Assembly (NCBI RefSeq): GCF_035593265.1
Contig: NZ_CP141614.1
Location: 434,001 to 498,000 of the forward strand
Length of the DNA stretch: 64,000 bases
Origin: Limnochorda sp. LNt
GTDB taxonomy: Bacteria; Bacillota; Limnochordia; Limnochordales; Geochordaceae
Direction of reading: 5' to 3'
Below the pieces are notes generated by a model. It was not told where the DNA came from. It did not search any database and saw only the letters and a list, made by a program, of their open reading frames with translations. The translations under genes were made by a program, and so were the position numbers. Numbering within the stretch: the first letter of the stretch is position 1; every line of letters starts with the position of its first letter. Below are positions 15,584 to 22,516 of this stretch, in pieces.

Positions 15584-17209
15584 TCAGTACCCCACCGCCT
15601 GCCCGTCCTTGCGGGGATCGGAGCCTGCGATGTAGACCCCCGTGTCGGGGTCGCGCCAGATGATCTGCCCGCCGCCGAACTCGATGGGGGGCCGCTCCCG
15701 CACCACACGGTGCCCGAGCTGCTCCAGCGCCGCCGCCACCCCCGCGTCGAAGCCCCGCTCCAGTGCCACCTGCCCGCCCGGCATCACCCGCAGGCGAGGG
15801 GCGTCCAGCGCGGCTTGTGGGTTGAGACCGAAGTCCACCATCGCCGAGACCACCTGCACGTGGCCCTGGGCCTGCATGTCGCCGCCCATCACGCCGAAGG
15901 CTGCCAGCGCCTGGCCCTTGCGGGTGATGAAGCCCGGGATGATGGTGTGGAAGGGACGCTTGCCGCCGGCCAGCTCATTGGAGTGGCCGGGGATCAGGTT
16001 GAAGCCGGCGCCGCGATTGTGCAGGGCGATGCCGGTGCCGGGCACCACCACGCCCGACCCGAAGCCGTAGAAGTTGGACTGGATGAACGAGACCATCCGC
16101 CCGTCGGCGTCGGCGGTGCAGAGGTAGACCGTGCCGCCGGCGGCCCGGCGGTCGGGGATCGGGTCGGGGATGGCGCGGTCGAGCCGGATGCGGCCGGCCA
16201 GGGCCTCGGCCACCGATGGGTCGGTGAAGCGCTCGACCGGCACGGGCGCTCGGCGGGGGTCGGCCACGTGCTGGTAGGCCTCGTGGAGCGCCAGGCGCAG
16301 GGCCTCGGCCAGGACGTGGGCGTGGGTCGGGTCGAGGTGGCGGATCTGCTCGCGGGAGGCTCCGCCAGAGCCGGTTGCTCCCAGGTCGAAGTGCCGGGCG
16401 ATGCCCAGCGCCAGCAGGGCGGCCACCCCCTGGCCGTTGGGGGGCAGCTCCCACACCTCGATGTCGCGGTAGGGGACCGCCAGCGGCTCCACCCACTCGG
16501 GGGCGTAGCGGGCCAGGTCCTCCCGGGTCAGGTAGCCGCCGGTGCGCTCGGCGTAGCGGGCGATGGCTTGGGCCAGCTCACCCCGGTACATGGCCTCGCC
16601 CCACGACTCGCCGATGAGCCGCAGCGTGCGGGCCTGGTCGGGCTGGCGAAAGATCTCGCCGGCCCGCGGCGCCCGGCCGCCAGGCAGGAAGGCGGCGCGG
16701 AAATCCTCCCGGCGGCCCAGGCGCGCCTCGGAGGCCTGCCACGCCGCCGCCGTGCGAGGGGGCACGGGGTGCCCCTGGTCGGCGTACTCGATGGCCGGCT
16801 CCAGCACGTCGGCCAGGGTCATCCGCCCGAAGCGCCGCAGCAGCTGCACCCAGCCCGCCACCACCCCGGGCACCGTCACCGGCTCCCACCCTTCGGTGGG
16901 CATCTTCTCGAGACCCCGCCGCCGCAACAACTCGGCATCGAGCGCGGCCGGGGCGGGGCCCGAGGCGTTGAGGCCGTGCAGGCGCTGGCCGTCCCAGACG
17001 ATGGCGAAGGCATCGCCGCCGATGCCGCACGAGGTGGGCTCCACCACCACCAGGGCCGCGGCCGCTGCCACGGCGGCGTCCACTGCATTGCCGCCGGCCA
17101 GGAGCATGCGCAACCCCGCCTGGGCGGCCAGCGGGTGGCTGGTGGCCACCATGCCCCGGCGGGCCAGCACCGGCATGCGGGCGGAGGGGTAGGGGAAGCG
17201 GGTGTCCAT
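15584..17209 (-). CDS. Gamma-glutamyltransferase (GGT) family protein
   Basis: The product is 541 residues, the usual length for the family. GGNAVDAAVAAAAALVVVEP near the N-terminus and GIGGDAFAIVWDG match the large-subunit start. Around residue 360, GGTVYLCTADADGRMVSF contains the Thr that becomes the N-terminal nucleophile after self-cleavage, although the usual TTH is replaced by GGT. GVMGGDMQAQGHVQV is the conserved C-terminal segment. The family cleaves or transfers gamma-glutamyl groups from glutathione and other gamma-glutamyl amides. No signal peptide is seen, so it is probably cytoplasmic, as in many YwrD-like GGTs. The start was placed at ATG 17209 (MDTRFPYPS) after a strong GAAGGGAAGG; an in-frame ATG seven codons upstream is less well placed. 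Confidence 0.88.
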   Translation of the reverse strand: MDTRFPYPSARMPVLARRGMVATSHPLAAQAGLRMLLAGGNAVDAAVAAAAALVVVEPTSCGIGGDAFAIVWDGQRLHGLNASGPAPAALDAELLRRRGLEKMPTEGWEPVTVPGVVAGWVQLLRRFGRMTLADVLEPAIEYADQGHPVPPRTAAAWQASEARLGRREDFRAAFLPGGRAPRAGEIFRQPDQARTLRLIGESWGEAMYRGELAQAIARYAERTGGYLTREDLARYAPEWVEPLAVPYRDIEVWELPPNGQGVAALLALGIARHFDLGATGSGGASREQIRHLDPTHAHVLAEALRLALHEAYQHVADPRRAPVPVERFTDPSVAEALAGRIRLDRAIPDPIPDRRAAGGTVYLCTADADGRMVSFIQSNFYGFGSGVVVPGTGIALHNRGAGFNLIPGHSNELAGGKRPFHTIIPGFITRKGQALAAFGVMGGDMQAQGHVQVVSAMVDFGLNPQAALDAPRLRVMPGGQVALERGFDAGVAAALEQLGHRVVRERPPIEFGGGQIIWRDPDTGVYIAGSDPRKDGQAVGY

Positions 17210-17395
17210 CGCGGCCCTTCCCTTCCTCATGTCATGGCGGTGTCGGTCCCGTTTGCTACTTCCAGCCCTGGCAGGGGGCTCCTCCGTGGAGCGGCCCCTG
17301 GCGTGTTTGACAGCAGGGCGGCCGCCATGATAGCCTGATGCAAGCGACGAAGAGCGTGCCAGCGGTTGGCCTGATGGCCGACCGGCCCATCTGAT

Positions 17396-17632
17396 CGCTG
17401 AATCCTCCCGTCTCGGGCGGCGTGCTCCGCATCGGGCCGTGCCCGCCGGGAGGAGCGGGGGACCCAGCCTTCACGGGGCGAATCTGGCCGACGCTTGTCC
17501 GAGCGGCATCGCCCGAGAGCGGCGAGTCGCCGCCTGCCGTGACGGGGCAGCCCGCCCCGGGTGCCGGCCGGAAGGGTCAGACTCCTTCGACCCGAGCCCG
17601 TCAGCTAACCCCGCAAGCGTGGGAGGAGAAGG
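17396..17632 (+). promoter_or_regulatory. c-di-AMP riboswitch (ydaO/yuaA class)
   Basis: Conserved blocks of the ydaO/yuaA aptamer appear in the right order: GCTGAATCCTCCCG, then GCGGGGGACCCA, then GGGGCGAATC, and finally GACCCGAGCCCGTCAGCTAACCCCGCAAGCG split over 17589-17618, closing with AGGAGAAGG. The core CCGTCAGCTAACC with the following CGCAAGCG is the signature of this RNA. The class binds cyclic di-AMP and usually turns gene expression off when the ligand is abundant. Known targets are potassium transporters, osmolyte uptake systems and cell-wall hydrolases. Here the next convincing gene, 270 bases downstream on the same strand, is an opine-dehydrogenase-like enzyme. Between them lies an array of 14-bp hairpin-forming repeats. 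No T-rich terminator is seen. Confidence 0.9.
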
Positions 17633-17797
17633 TGGGCCCGGCGTCCATGCGTCCCGCTCCCTGCGTCTCGGGTCGAGTCGAAGCCGGGCTTCCCTTCGCA
17701 AGTGCATGAGGTCCTCGTGCGTGCGGTCCGCGCGCCGTCGCCGACGGGCGGCGGTGAGGCCGCGGCGTCACGTGCGCGACCCCTGGCGTCTCCGGGC

Positions 17798-17835
17798 GGC
17801 CGTGCGCCCACGGCCGTGCGCCCACGGCCGTGCGG
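17798..17835 (+). repeat. 14-bp tandem repeat forming overlapping hairpins in the riboswitch leader
   Basis: The unit GGCCGTGCGCCCAC is repeated at 17798-17811 and 17812-17825, followed by a partial third copy. Each junction forms a 7-bp hairpin, GGCCGTG-CGCC-CACGGCC. The two hairpins share an arm and so exclude each other. This layout could serve as the expression platform of the upstream riboswitch, but there is no U-tract. Confidence 0.6.
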
Positions 17836-17905
17836 CCCGGGGCGGCGGGGCCGTGATGGCCTCGGGGGCCGGTCGCTCGCTGGCCCGAGGAGGAGGGACG
17901 CACGC

Positions 17906-19045
17906 ATGGACCGACCCCGCATCGCCGTCATCGGGGCAGGCGCCGGGGGGCTCGCCACAGCCGTCCACCTGAGTCTGGCCGGGCTGCCACCGTTGCTGGT
18001 CAACCGCAGCCCCGACCGGATCCTCCCGTTGATGGAGCGGCCCGTCGTCGCCGTGGAGGGCGTCTGGCAGGGCGAGGTGCCGCTGGCCGCAGCCACGGCC
18101 GATCTCTCGGTGGTCGCCTCGGTCGACGTCGTCATCGTCGCCACACCGGCCACCGCCCACCGCGAGCTGGCGACGTCCCTGGCGCCGTACCTGTCGGCTC
18201 GCCACCTCGTCGTCCTCCACCCCGGGCGCACTCTGGGGGCGCTGGAGTTCGCCGCGGTGTTGCAGCAGGCCGGCACCCAGGTGCGAGCGGTGGCCGAGAC
18301 CGACACGTTGCTCTACACGGCCCGCAGCTACGCGCTGGGCAGGGTCCGCGTGAGCGGCCTCAAGCGGCGCGTGCGGGTGGCGGCGTTGCCGCCTTGGCAG
18401 ACGGCAGAGGTGCTGGCCGTGCTGAGGCCGCTGGGGCCTCGCTTCGTGCCGGCGCCCCACGTGCTGGCCACGGGCATCCACAACATCGGCGCGATGTTTC
18501 ACCCGGCCCCCATGCTGCTCAACGCGGGGCGCATCCAGGCCGGCGAGCGCTTCGAGTACTACCGGGAGGGCATCACGCCGGCCGTGGCGACGCTGGTGCG
18601 GGGGCTGGACCGGGAGCGGCTGGCCGTGGGGCGCGCCTGGGGCGTGCGGGCCGAGCCGGTCGAGACCTGGATGCGCCGGCACTACGGCCTGCCCCGGGAG
18701 CTCGAGACGCTGGAGGCGCTGGTGGCGGCCAACTCCGCCTACGCCGGGGTGATGGCGCCCGAGACCCTGGAGCACCGCTACCTGCTCGAAGACGTGCCGA
18801 CGGGGCTGGTGCCGCTGGCGCGCCTGGGGCGGCTGGCCGGCGTCGAGACGCCGCTGATGGAGGCCGTCATCGACATGGCCTCGCACCTGGTGGGCGTCGA
18901 CTTCCGCCGGAGCGGCCGGAGCCTGGAGCGCATGGGCCTGGGCGGCGTCAGCGCCCGGCGGCTGATGGAGATCGTGATGACGGGGCTGCCGGCCCCGAGC
19001 GAGATGGGGGAGCCGGCGGACCTGGCCCTGGAGGCCCTCTCCTGA
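17906..19045 (+). CDS. NAD/NADP octopine/nopaline dehydrogenase-family protein
   Basis: The product is 379 residues. It begins MDRPRIAVIGAGAGG, a Rossmann dinucleotide-binding loop, followed by VVIVATPATAHRELA in the position of beta-4. The second half carries HNIGAMFHPAPMLLNAG and a helical region typical of the octopine dehydrogenase C-terminal domain. Family members reductively condense an amino acid with a 2-keto acid or run the reverse reaction. The start at ATG 17906 follows AGGAGGAGGG at good spacing. The upstream open frame overlaps the riboswitch leader and is discarded. It heads a set of three closely spaced genes (B12-binding protein, AsnB-like protein) with rpsD after them. The substrate is unknown. 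A 2-dehydropantoate or glycerol-3-phosphate reductase relative is the alternative. Confidence 0.8.
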   Translation: MDRPRIAVIGAGAGGLATAVHLSLAGLPPLLVNRSPDRILPLMERPVVAVEGVWQGEVPLAAATADLSVVASVDVVIVATPATAHRELATSLAPYLSARHLVVLHPGRTLGALEFAAVLQQAGTQVRAVAETDTLLYTARSYALGRVRVSGLKRRVRVAALPPWQTAEVLAVLRPLGPRFVPAPHVLATGIHNIGAMFHPAPMLLNAGRIQAGERFEYYREGITPAVATLVRGLDRERLAVGRAWGVRAEPVETWMRRHYGLPRELETLEALVAANSAYAGVMAPETLEHRYLLEDVPTGLVPLARLGRLAGVETPLMEAVIDMASHLVGVDFRRSGRSLERMGLGGVSARRLMEIVMTGLPAPSEMGEPADLALEALS

Positions 19046-19118
19046 GCCGGCCGCCGCTCGGCGGCGAGGCGAGGGCTGCAGGGCCGATGCGTGGGCGATG
19101 TCGAGAGGGGGATGTCCC

Positions 19119-20870
19119 ATGGCTCGTGGCAGGGTGCGCATGCTGACCGCCGCGGTGGGCGAGTGCGTCCACGTGGCGGGGCTGTACCGCTTCAGCCGGA
19201 TGGCCCAAGACGCTGGCTTCGACGTCCACTTCATGGGGCCGGCGGTGAGGACGGAGCGGCTGGTGGCGGCGCTGCGGGAGCACGACCCGGCGGTGGTGGG
19301 GCTCAGCTACCGGCTGACGCCGGGGGCCGGCCGTCGCGTCCTGGAGTCGTTGCGGACCCGTCTCGTGGCAGAGGGGCTCGCCTCCGGGCGGCTCTTCCTC
19401 TTCGGCGGGACGCCGCCGGTGGCGGCGGAGGCCCGGACCCTGGGATGGTTCGCCCGGGTCTTCGACGGGACCGAGGACGACCGGGAGACGGCCATCTACC
19501 TGCGGCGGCTGTGGCAGGCGCTGGCCTCGGGGCAGCCGGCCGAGGTGGCGGCCCGGGCGGCGGAGCAGGCGGCCGGCGACGAGTCCGAGCGGCACTACCC
19601 CCAGACGCTGCCCGAGCGCATCGACTGGCAGCGCCCCTATCCCATCATCCGCCACCACTTCGGATTGCCGAGCCTGGAGGCCACCATCGAGGGGGTGGCG
19701 CGGCTGGCCGAGGCCCGGGCGCTCGACGTCATCTCCCTGGCCACGGACCAAAACTGCCAGGAGTGCTTCTTCCGCCCCGAGGAGATGGATCCCGAGCAGG
19801 ACGGGGCAGGCGGGGTGCCGGTGCGCACGGCGGAGGATCTGCGGCGCATCTACCAGGCCAGCCGCCGGGGTAACTACCCGCTCATGCGGGCCTACAGCGG
19901 TACCCGCGATCTGATCCCGATGGCGGAGCTGCTGGCCGAGACCCTGCACAACGCCTGGGCGGCCGTGCCGCTCACCTGGTACAGCATCCTCGACGGCCGC
20001 AGTCGCCGGCCCCTGGAGCGGACCATCCGCGAGGCGCAACAGGCCTTCGCCTGGCACGGGGCCCGGGGCATCCCGGTGGAGTCCAACGAGTCGCACCACT
20101 GGAGCCTGCGGGACGCGCCCGACGCGGTCGCGGTGGTGATGGCCTTCCTGGCCGCCTACAACGCCCGGCAGGCGGGTGTGCGCCACTACGTCGCGCAGTA
20201 CATGTTCAATACGCCGCCGGCCACGTCGCCCGCCATGGACCTGGCCAAGATGCTGGCCAAGGCGACCCTCATCGAGGGCCTGCACGGGCCCGGCTTCACC
20301 AGCTACCGGGAGACGCGCCTGGGCCTCTCGAGCCACCCGGCCGACCTGCTGGTGGCCAAGGGCCACCTGGGATCCTCGGTGCTGCTGCAGATGGCCCTGC
20401 GGCCCCACATCGTGCACGTGGTGGCCTTCTGTGAGGCGGATCACGCGGCCACCCCCGACGAGATCGTCGAGAGCGTCAAGATCGCCAGGGGCGCCATCCG
20501 CGACGCCATGAGCGGGCTGCCCGACATGGCCGCCGACCCGGCCGTGCAGGCCCGGCGAGACGAGCTGCTCGACGAGGCCCGGGTGCTGCTGGAGGCCATG
20601 GCGGAGCTGGCGCCGGCGGGCGTCGACGACCCGCTGGCTGACGCTGCCACCCTGGCCCGGGCGGTGCACGTGGGCCTCATCGATGCGCCTCACCTGCGCA
20701 ACAACCCCGAGGCCCGGGGCGAGGTGACCACCCGCATCATCGGCGGCGCCTGCCGGGCCGTCGACCCTGCCACCGAACGGGTGCTGCCCGAGCGTGAGCG
20801 GGTGCGGCGCGTGCTGGACGCGGCGGTGCGGGAGGGCCGACTGCCGCGCTCGGTGCGGTTGGCGAGGTGA
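19119..20870 (+). CDS. Cobalamin-binding protein with mutase/TIM-barrel-like domain
   Basis: The product is 583 residues. The N-terminal 130 residues look like a B12-binding Rossmann domain: GECVHVAG supplies the xxHxxG motif with His18 as likely cobalt ligand, followed by VVGLSYRLT and LFLFGGTPP in the usual Ser and Gly-Gly positions. The remaining 450 residues include DVISLATDQNCQECFF, MRAYSGTRDLIPM, VESNESHHWSLRD and GVRHYVAQYMFNTPP, resembling the barrel of glutamate-mutase-epsilon-like or B12-dependent isomerases. The resemblance is to family style, not to a named enzyme. No Fe-S CxxxCxxC radical-SAM motif is present. It lies 73 bases after the opine-dehydrogenase-like gene and overlaps the end zone of the next gene (TGATG). 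The start follows GAGAGGGGG. A carbon-skeleton rearrangement of an amino acid is a plausible role. Confidence 0.7.
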   Translation: MARGRVRMLTAAVGECVHVAGLYRFSRMAQDAGFDVHFMGPAVRTERLVAALREHDPAVVGLSYRLTPGAGRRVLESLRTRLVAEGLASGRLFLFGGTPPVAAEARTLGWFARVFDGTEDDRETAIYLRRLWQALASGQPAEVAARAAEQAAGDESERHYPQTLPERIDWQRPYPIIRHHFGLPSLEATIEGVARLAEARALDVISLATDQNCQECFFRPEEMDPEQDGAGGVPVRTAEDLRRIYQASRRGNYPLMRAYSGTRDLIPMAELLAETLHNAWAAVPLTWYSILDGRSRRPLERTIREAQQAFAWHGARGIPVESNESHHWSLRDAPDAVAVVMAFLAAYNARQAGVRHYVAQYMFNTPPATSPAMDLAKMLAKATLIEGLHGPGFTSYRETRLGLSSHPADLLVAKGHLGSSVLLQMALRPHIVHVVAFCEADHAATPDEIVESVKIARGAIRDAMSGLPDMAADPAVQARRDELLDEARVLLEAMAELAPAGVDDPLADAATLARAVHVGLIDAPHLRNNPEARGEVTTRIIGGACRAVDPATERVLPERERVRRVLDAAVREGRLPRSVRLAR

Positions 20871-20875
20871 TGGGG

Positions 20876-22516
20876 ATGGCGGCCATCGCCGGCGGCATCG
20901 GGCGACCGTCACTGGAGACGGTGCGGCGCATGGCGGCCGCCATCGCCCACCGGGGACCGGGCGGGGCGCGGTGGTCGGTCTGGCCCGAGACCGATCCCCG
21001 CGTCGTCTTGGGACACGGCAGGGCGGGGTGGACGGCTGCCGACCGGGAGGTGGCCGGTCCGTCCGGGGCGGCCGAGGAGGACGCGGCGCTGGCCGCCGCG
21101 CTCGTCGGCGGCGAGGGTCCGAGCGGCGCCCTGGCCGGGGACGATACCGGGCCCGGCATGCTCGCGACGCGGGCGGCTGCGGCCGTCCGTCTCCTGCGCG
21201 CCACGACGGGGGGCTACGCGCTGGCGGTCTGGCGAGAGGACGGCCAGGGGGGCGGCTGGCTCGCCCTGGCCAGGGATCCCATCGGGATCCGCCCCCTCTA
21301 CTGGGCCCGCACGAGGGAGGCCGTCTACTTCGCCTCGGAGATCAAGGCCATCCGGGAGGCCAGCCGGACCTACCGGGCCTTTCCGCCGGGCCGGGTGGCG
21401 GTCTTGCGGATCACGGCGGACGGGGCTCTCCAGGGCCCGGCCTGGGCGGCGACGCATCGCCTGCCATGGGAGACGATGCGCGACGCCGAGCGGCCAGCCG
21501 GAAGGGCACCGGAGCGCGCCGGTCGCGAGGCGGGGCCGTCGGTGGCCGCGGGTGCGGCGGTGGCTGGGCTCGAGCAGGAGCCCGAGGCGGCGCTCGATCG
21601 CCTGGAGACGCTCCTGCGGGCGGCCGTCGCCGCGCGGGTCGAGGGGGACGGGCCGGTGGGCGTGCTGCTGAGCGGCGGGCTCGACTCGAGCCTGGTGGCG
21701 GCGCTGGCGCGCTCACGGGTCGGCGGCCCTCTTTTGAGCTTTGCCGCCGGCACCCCCGACAGTCCCGACGTCGAAGCCGCGGCCCGGGTCGCACGGGCGC
21801 TGGGCCTGATCCATCACGTGCGCCTGCTGACCGAGGCCGACGCCCTGCGGCTGTTGCCCGAGGTGGTCTATCGCCTGGAGAGCTTCGACGCTCCGCTGGT
21901 GCGAAGCGCGCTGGCCAACCACCTGGCCGCCGAGGCGGCCGCGGGCCGGGTCGGGGCGGTGCTCAGCGGCGAGGGCAGCGACGAGCTCTTCGCCGGGTAC
22001 GCGAGCCTCGAGGGGCTGGAGGGGCCGGCCCTGGAGCGGGCACTGTCCGCGTTGATGGGACTGCTGGCCGACACCGGCCTCCAGCGGGTGGATCGCATGG
22101 CGCAGGCTTTCGGGATCGAGCCCAGACTCCCGTTTCTCGACTGGCCCCTGGTGGCCTGGGCCTTCGCCATCTCCCCCGACCTCAAGCGGCGCCACGAGGG
22201 CGGCCGGGTCGTCGACAAGTGGCTGGTGCGGTGTCTGGCGGCGCGGGTGCTGCCGGCCGAGGCGGCGGCCATCGCCACGCGTCCCAAGCAGAAGTTCTCG
22301 CAGGGCAGCGGCGCTGCGGGGCTGCTGGCGCGGCTGGCCGAGCAGGCCATCTCCGAAGCGGAGCAGCGTCGCCTGCAGGCCCGCTATCCCCGCCTGCCCC
22401 TGGGCTCCCGTGAGCAGGCGTGGTACCTGCGGCTCTTCCTCGACGCCTACCCGGAGCCCGAGGCGGTGGACGCGGTGCGGCTCAGCCGCAGCGTGGTGCC
22501 CGGCGAGGTGGCCTGA
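20876..22516 (+). CDS. Asparagine-synthetase-like protein lacking the glutaminase cysteine
   Basis: The product is 546 residues. The N-terminus MAAIAGGIG aligns with MCGIAGIFG of class II glutamine amidotransferases, but the catalytic Cys2 is Ala. IAHRGPGG, GHGRAGW and LARDPIGIRPLYW keep the rest of that fold. The synthetase half has LLSGGLDSS at about residue 265 (the ATP-pyrophosphatase loop) and SGEGSDELFAGY, so adenylation chemistry should be intact. Without Cys2 it cannot hydrolyse glutamine and would use free ammonia or another amine, as beta-lactam synthetases and other AsnB relatives do. The ATG at 20876 was preferred over 20870 because of spacing from GGCGAGG and the alignment. It is translationally coupled to the B12 protein gene. 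Confidence 0.85.
   Translation: MAAIAGGIGRPSLETVRRMAAAIAHRGPGGARWSVWPETDPRVVLGHGRAGWTAADREVAGPSGAAEEDAALAAALVGGEGPSGALAGDDTGPGMLATRAAAAVRLLRATTGGYALAVWREDGQGGGWLALARDPIGIRPLYWARTREAVYFASEIKAIREASRTYRAFPPGRVAVLRITADGALQGPAWAATHRLPWETMRDAERPAGRAPERAGREAGPSVAAGAAVAGLEQEPEAALDRLETLLRAAVAARVEGDGPVGVLLSGGLDSSLVAALARSRVGGPLLSFAAGTPDSPDVEAAARVARALGLIHHVRLLTEADALRLLPEVVYRLESFDAPLVRSALANHLAAEAAAGRVGAVLSGEGSDELFAGYASLEGLEGPALERALSALMGLLADTGLQRVDRMAQAFGIEPRLPFLDWPLVAWAFAISPDLKRRHEGGRVVDKWLVRCLAARVLPAEAAAIATRPKQKFSQGSGAAGLLARLAEQAISEAEQRRLQARYPRLPLGSREQAWYLRLFLDAYPEPEAVDAVRLSRSVVPGEVA

Follow-up and report, generated by a model that had tools for sequence, protein, structure and literature searches.

The window, that is, the whole stretch of 64,000 nucleotides from the genome of Limnochorda sp. 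LNt that was analysed, contains a c-di-AMP riboswitch aptamer of the ydaO class followed by genes for an opine dehydrogenase (ODH), a B12-dependent mutase-like protein (B12) and an AsnB-like amide ligase (Table 1). The three genes are closely spaced and all lie on the + strand, as the original prediction had it: ODH and B12 are separated by 52-73 nt, and B12 and AsnB overlap by 4 nt. A gamma-glutamyltransferase gene (15584-17230, − strand) is divergent from the riboswitch operon and has the intergenic region in common with it.

Table 1. Features of the riboswitch operon, in positions of the window.
Feature	Position	Strand	Basis and remarks
Candidate promoter, TTGACA-18 nt-TAGCCT, 5' of the aptamer	17307..17336	+	Read from the sequence; putative
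5' hairpin, GGTTGGCC/GGCCGACC flanked by CAGCG/CGCTG, joining the aptamer	17358..17399	+	Aligned hairpins in relatives
c-di-AMP (ydaO-class) riboswitch aptamer, RF00379	17396..17633	+	cmscan match 17425-17633 and core motifs common to relatives
Leader, aptamer to ODH	17634..17905	+	272 nt; 17586-17596 could pair with 17667-17677
Opine dehydrogenase (ODH), PF02317	17906..19045	+	155.5 bits against a cut-off of 30; closest solved relative 1bg6
B12-dependent mutase-like protein	19098..20870	+	N-terminal cobalamin-binding domain and glutamate-mutase-E-like barrel; alternative start 19119
AsnB-like ATP-dependent amide ligase	20867..22516	+	PF00733, 186 bits; likely start 20876

The aptamer was originally recognized from its letters, and a covariance match now confirms its class: cmscan of the 761-base intergenic stretch aligns the complete RF00379 model (1-134) with 35.3 bits and E = 1.9e-6, which is below the gathering score of 38 bits, so that a whole-window cmscan at gathering thresholds comes back empty. 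The modest score is apparently caused by two helices with long inserts. The second helix of the aptamer, CCTCCCG (17404-17410) with CGGGAGG (17447-17453), has 36 inserted nucleotides between its strands that the model cannot place, and another helix carries an insert of 78 nt. P1, as read by eye, pairs CGC (17396-17398) with GCG (17617-17619), cmscan having aligned its 5' strand short. As the 5' strands of P1 and of the next helix lie before the cmscan start, 17396 is a better 5' end than 17425. The predicted start was therefore right, and what had been taken for several aptamer blocks are conserved motifs of one aptamer. The conserved core sequences GCGGGGGACCCA, GGGGCGAATC and CCGTCAGCTAACC are all present, and the core letters match column by column between the window and the other loci compared. 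In the closest genome with identical gene order (G191, locus L003), the aptamer scores 63-65 bits. Judging by the significant full-length match, the core and the homology to this locus, we would call the window aptamer a diverged member of RF00379. The hairpin that joins its 5' end has aligned counterparts in L191/L003, L004, L005 and L008 (aligned by eye, with no statistics), and may extend the aptamer beyond the Rfam model.

A diadenylate cyclase domain (PF02457, 101 bits) is encoded in the same genome (G000:2564754-2565092), indicating that the host makes c-di-AMP. The sole other RF00379 match of the genome (G000:C1:2227784-2227933, loci L001 and L226; 79.8 bits) is followed by a family-5 extracellular solute-binding protein of the peptide-type ABC uptake class. 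With only this one further match, the visible c-di-AMP riboswitch regulon here consists of one uptake system and the ODH-B12-AsnB operon. In the nearest relative, too, the other RF00379 (L227) has a similar solute-binding protein behind it.

The candidate promoter has a counterpart in L191 (TTGACA-18-TAGACT ahead of its aptamer) and is absent from the list of the consensus scan because its −10 element is poorly matched. The original prediction depended on there being no terminator and separate promoter between the aptamer and position 17906, and scanning this stretch revealed neither an intrinsic terminator nor a sigma-70 promoter. The leader of L191 (GC about 71%) likewise has no intrinsic terminator, and the 11-bp alternative pairing listed for the window leader is weak, as it is not conserved in L191. 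Across switched loci, a home-made scan found a hairpin with a T-run 3' of the aptamer in 17 of 20, the hairpin being far from the aptamer in a few loci whose gap is long. Several low-GC loci carry the hairpin directly behind the aptamer, in an arrangement of the type AAAGCTATGG...CCATAGCTTT. A hairpin and T-run that follow the aptamer constitute the architecture of a transcription OFF-switch, and for the window genome we infer the same sign.

The first gene product belongs to the octopine-dehydrogenase family, as predicted (PF02317, 155 bits), and keeps the catalytic His, Arg and Asp: H199, R291 and D296 are invariant in the family alignment and align with H212, R324 and D329 of octopine dehydrogenase. 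This conservation indicates that ODH should be an active opine dehydrogenase. Its closest solved relative is N-(1-D-carboxylethyl)-L-norvaline dehydrogenase. We take PF02317 to be distinct from the CntM family, which would speak against a staphylopine-type metallophore.

The second gene product had been described as a B12-binding barrel protein. Both the B12 domain and the barrel are there, and by its fold the protein is more exactly a glutamate-mutase-like enzyme. PF02310 occupies the N-terminus and is followed by about 440 residues that match no Pfam family. The domain is present in 27 of 27 family members, with H15 and G18 invariant in the motif D/C-V-H-x-x-G, which holds the axial His. PF06368 (glutamate mutase E) has no match in the window protein and is touched at E<5 by only 6 of the 27 members (best 1.4e-6). 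The structure predicted by AlphaFold2, with 27 relatives as input, has a pLDDT of 92, and its top Foldseek matches in the PDB are glutamate mutase E (6h9e_B, E 4e-15; 1cb7_B, E 1e-14), followed by ornithine and lysine aminomutases and methylmalonyl-CoA mutase. Profile-profile comparison of the B12 family with true GlmE yields E 8e-8. In an hhalign alignment of low identity and moderate certainty, H177, Q211 and Y256 stand at R66, R100 and R149, the three substrate arginines of glutamate mutase, and E330 of glutamate mutase is kept as E436. The B12 protein is therefore of the mutase type and, as the three arginines are not kept, probably has a different substrate. Relatives with 44-78% identity occur on contigs labelled Bacillota, Aminicenantes, Chloroflexi, Armatimonadota, Atribacteria, Bathyarchaeota and Asgard. 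Two remoter relatives (37-40% identity; G112:C59:1751-3286 and G080:C156:24450-25994) lie in open frames of about 1240 amino acids, possibly a larger fusion. GlmL-like reactivase genes adjoin the set in 13 loci, and the one such protein tested against NCBIfam, from L042, is above the GlmL equivalog cut-off; a search of the window genome, run with no positive control, found no GlmL.

The AsnB-like protein has a complete synthetase domain, with SGGLDSS and the downstream motifs conserved. It scores under both curated cut-offs, those of asparagine synthetase B (216 vs 267 bits) and TIGR03104 (126 vs 570 bits). Its N-terminus, MAAIAGG, is without the glutaminase Cys. A Cys-less ligase, as originally described, is thus correct for the window; as a general trait it fails. 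An AsnB-like gene is found in 17 loci, and the N-terminal Cys is present in eight distinct copies (L003/L191, L005, L058, L070/L153, L163, L196, L201/L203 and the G342 copy); nine distinct loci (the window, L006, L022, L026, L027, L030, L040, L050 and L079/L195) have Ser, Ala or Gly in its place. Loss of the Cys in so many loci could be read as a sign that the enzyme closes a ring in the manner of beta-lactam synthetase or CarA, both of which act on N-carboxyalkyl amino acids, and that the product of the operon is a signalling compound or specialised metabolite of low abundance. The AsnB profile indeed also matches beta-lactam synthetase (E 4e-44) and CarA, but asparagine synthetase B is far ahead as the best match (E 1e-130), and the copies with Cys imply that a glutamine-derived amide is formed in the same pathway. 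We consider such a product quite improbable, and ring closure deduced from the missing Cys was demoted on account of the eight copies that keep it. Given that several AsnB copies retain the glutaminase Cys, the simplest role of the ligase is amide formation, and on the simplest reading the Cys-less copies would use ammonia or another amine as the donor.

The original prediction treated the three genes as a trio to be sought in other genomes. The families do co-occur elsewhere, and once recognised duplicates are removed, 96 of 108 loci have ODH right next to the B12 gene and on its strand. As a fixed unit, the trio was rejected because its third slot varies. A Ddl-like ATP-grasp ligase, akin to the D-alanine-D-alanine ligase family and absent from the window, stands in place of AsnB in 16 other loci. 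Its gene lies between the riboswitch and ODH in L198, L204, L206 and L210, is divergent from the ODH-B12 pair in six loci, and in L208 is part of the order riboswitch-ODH-Ddl-GlmL-B12. Both ligases together are found in no locus, against an expectation of 2.3 among loci with room (P=0.07), an alternation that, taken alone, is weak and suggestive only. The conserved core is the pair of ODH and mutase, joined by a variable AsnB-like or Ddl-like ligase slot.

In L010, L011, L019 and L036, inspection by eye places ODH-B12 directly upstream of V-type ATPase subunit-like genes, and L010 also has a Na+/H+-translocating pyrophosphatase close to the pair. In Aminicenantes (L020, L021, L024, L033, L034, L041, L049 and L057), the pair is followed by genes for TldD/PmbA-type proteases. 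A gene of one cluster lies directly 3' of the pair in L012 and L016/L199; the L016 copy encodes a MATE-family transporter, a candidate exporter.

The Ddl-like enzymes raise the question of whether the pathway under c-di-AMP makes a building block related to the cell envelope or peptidoglycan and not a free solute. Cell-wall genes, besides osmotic ones, are associated with c-di-AMP riboswitches (PMC7266159), which is consistent with an envelope product, as are the 16 loci with a Ddl-like third slot. Nevertheless, AsnB-like genes make up half of the third-slot genes known, and the three Ddl-like proteins tested with NCBIfam fall well under the D-Ala-D-Ala ligase model cut-offs. Furthermore, no Mur or glycosyltransferase cluster is prominent among the partly annotated neighbours, and the set also occurs in the archaeal contigs L040 and L028, which are expected to be without peptidoglycan. 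An envelope product thus appears unlikely.

The riboswitch was found to accompany the set well beyond the window. The sample comprised 80 further genomes of the phylum that encode a strong homologue of the B12 protein; 62 of them have RF00379 somewhere, with 118 matches overall. In 37 of the 80 (23 genera, 16 of 37 families), RF00379 leads the set, 1.1-4.3 kb 5' of the B12 gene and in the same orientation, where chance predicts about 0.13. Further linked cases are L005, L008, L032 and the Anaerolineae contig L055. Where ODH lies away from the B12 gene (G354, G275, G311 and G399), it is preceded at 111-144 nt by an RF00379 of its own in four of the four tested, and in G342, the AsnB gene sits between two RF00379 copies, the second of which leads ODH-B12. 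L200 (G045:C37) has a tandem pair of RF00379 aptamers before ODH-B12. The recurrence over families, together with the separated ODHs that have riboswitches of their own, strongly supports c-di-AMP control of the set. The possibility that riboswitch and genes are chance neighbours in the window genome, with ODH driven by its own promoter, might draw on the 272-nt leader, the want of a recognisable expression platform and the RF00379 score below the gathering cut-off. It is essentially refuted, and we regard it as very improbable: chance adjacency was rejected on the 37 linked genomes and the four unlinked ODHs.

Linkage is not the whole picture, as the set occurs both with and without the riboswitch (37 vs 43 of the 80 genomes). 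Scanning 40 of the 43 unlinked loci revealed no RF00379 and no other regulatory RNA at gathering score, a permissive rescan of nine of these 40 again found no RF00379, and most genomes of other phyla that have the set contain no RF00379 whatever. Control by c-di-AMP is therefore not universal, and the enzymes are more widespread than the switch. From the side of the riboswitch, 40 of the 118 in these genomes lead the set or its separated ODH, which places the set among the main outputs of c-di-AMP riboswitches in the 80 genomes.

The aptamer, the genes, their conserved linkage, the mutase fold and the alternation of ligases, all established computationally, can be assembled into a mechanism. 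When c-di-AMP is high, in cells without osmotic stress, the aptamer would fold and expression would stop; when c-di-AMP falls, as is expected in hyperosmotic stress, the operon would be expressed, and all of its enzymes would contribute to one small metabolite. The AdoCbl-type mutase, with its glutamate-mutase fold, may rearrange an amino-acid-derived skeleton, and the opine dehydrogenase may join an amino acid reductively to an alpha-keto acid. The ligase, AsnB-like here and Ddl-like ATP-grasp elsewhere, would activate a carboxyl group for amide or pseudo-peptide formation. The product would most likely be a compatible solute or a K+ counter-anion, used where other members of the phylum rely on N-epsilon-acetyl-beta-lysine.

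These same enzymes could also be seen as a catabolic or redox (fermentative) module for amino acids or opines, with ODH as a means of recycling NADH and the mutase supplying a degradation of the glutamate type. Such a module would be in line with the roles of the canonical enzymes, where glutamate mutase takes part in glutamate fermentation and an ODH can be the terminal dehydrogenase, and in L045, a glutamate dehydrogenase gene adjoins the set. It is nonetheless rather unlikely that the operon degrades amino acids: no degradation pathway appears among the recurring, partly annotated neighbours, true glutamate mutase is encoded apart from the set, at other or additional loci, and the ATP-consuming ligase in the operon argues for synthesis rather than breakdown.

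The distribution of a known osmolyte gene bears on the proposed solute. Of 399 genomes of the phylum, 61 have AblB (TIGR03827), the acetyltransferase of N-epsilon-acetyl-beta-lysine, above cut-off. It is present in only 2 of 82 genomes with the mutase, where 12.5 are expected (Fisher p=1e-4), and the deficit persists at the level of genera (2 vs 9.7 expected, p=0.0013) and families (2 vs 8.4 expected, p=0.003), in a test that is confounded by phylogeny, with lineage effects remaining in the counts. Such near-exclusion would look like the pattern expected of alternative solutions to one need.

The original prediction envisaged that the genes build or remodel an amino-acid-derived compatible solute or signalling compound under c-di-AMP control. 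Regulation by c-di-AMP is well supported, by 37 of the 80 genomes and by all four separated ODHs, and a solute fits the regulator, the near-exclusion of ablB and the logic of the enzymes, from which we infer the reaction types, the product and its role. On balance, the evidence tips slightly towards a c-di-AMP OFF-switch that governs the synthesis of an opine-type compatible solute. More tentatively, many Bacillota and some Chloroflexota might use mutase, ODH and ligase under the c-di-AMP riboswitch to make an undescribed solute, an amidated or ligated, skeleton-rearranged opine or beta-amino acid. If so, the operon would add both a biochemical way of making an osmolyte and a function of coenzyme-B12 mutases to those known, suggesting B12 radical chemistry outside of fermentation and predicting a metabolite that rises as c-di-AMP falls. 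Full-text searches of a literature library returned no paper in which an octopine or opine dehydrogenase is connected with ydaO or c-di-AMP; reportedly the primary papers on ydaO gene associations, Block 2010 and Nelson 2013 lay outside this library, so that an earlier listing is possible. The regulator is of a known class, and the pathway beneath it appears undescribed.

Each component has a characterized counterpart. ODH resembles 1bg6 and octopine dehydrogenase (3c7a) in its full-length homology and its catalytic His, Arg and Asp, and is unlike them in being genetically coupled to a B12 mutase. The B12 protein shares the barrel fold, the cobalamin domain with its His and the C-terminal region with glutamate mutase (GlmE/MutE and GlmS; 1cb7, 6h9e), and some relatives of the window set have a GlmL partner, as glutamate mutase does. 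It is unlike glutamate mutase in that the cobalamin domain is fused, at the N-terminus, and in that most members have no PF06368 match. The ligase has its ATP-dependent synthetase domain in common with asparagine synthetase B and with the AsnB-like enzyme of TIGR03104, which performs the amidating step of an osmoprotectant pathway, the synthesis of N-acetylglutaminylglutamine amide. It differs in that the window copy lacks the glutaminase Cys, and in that the two Thr of 1ct9 (sequence positions 321-322) before the conserved Arg are replaced. As a whole, the operon is most readily compared with a system of Dehalobacter sp. CF, an anaerobic member of the Bacillota, in which a c-di-AMP/Na+ riboswitch controls an N-epsilon-acetyl-beta-lysine gene (PMC9337991). 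There, a c-di-AMP riboswitch with a terminator turns off an osmolyte-precursor gene, whereas the set in the window places a B12-dependent mutase-like protein, an opine dehydrogenase and an amide ligase behind its aptamer, and across genomes the mutase set and the N-epsilon-acetyl-beta-lysine system are largely mutually exclusive.
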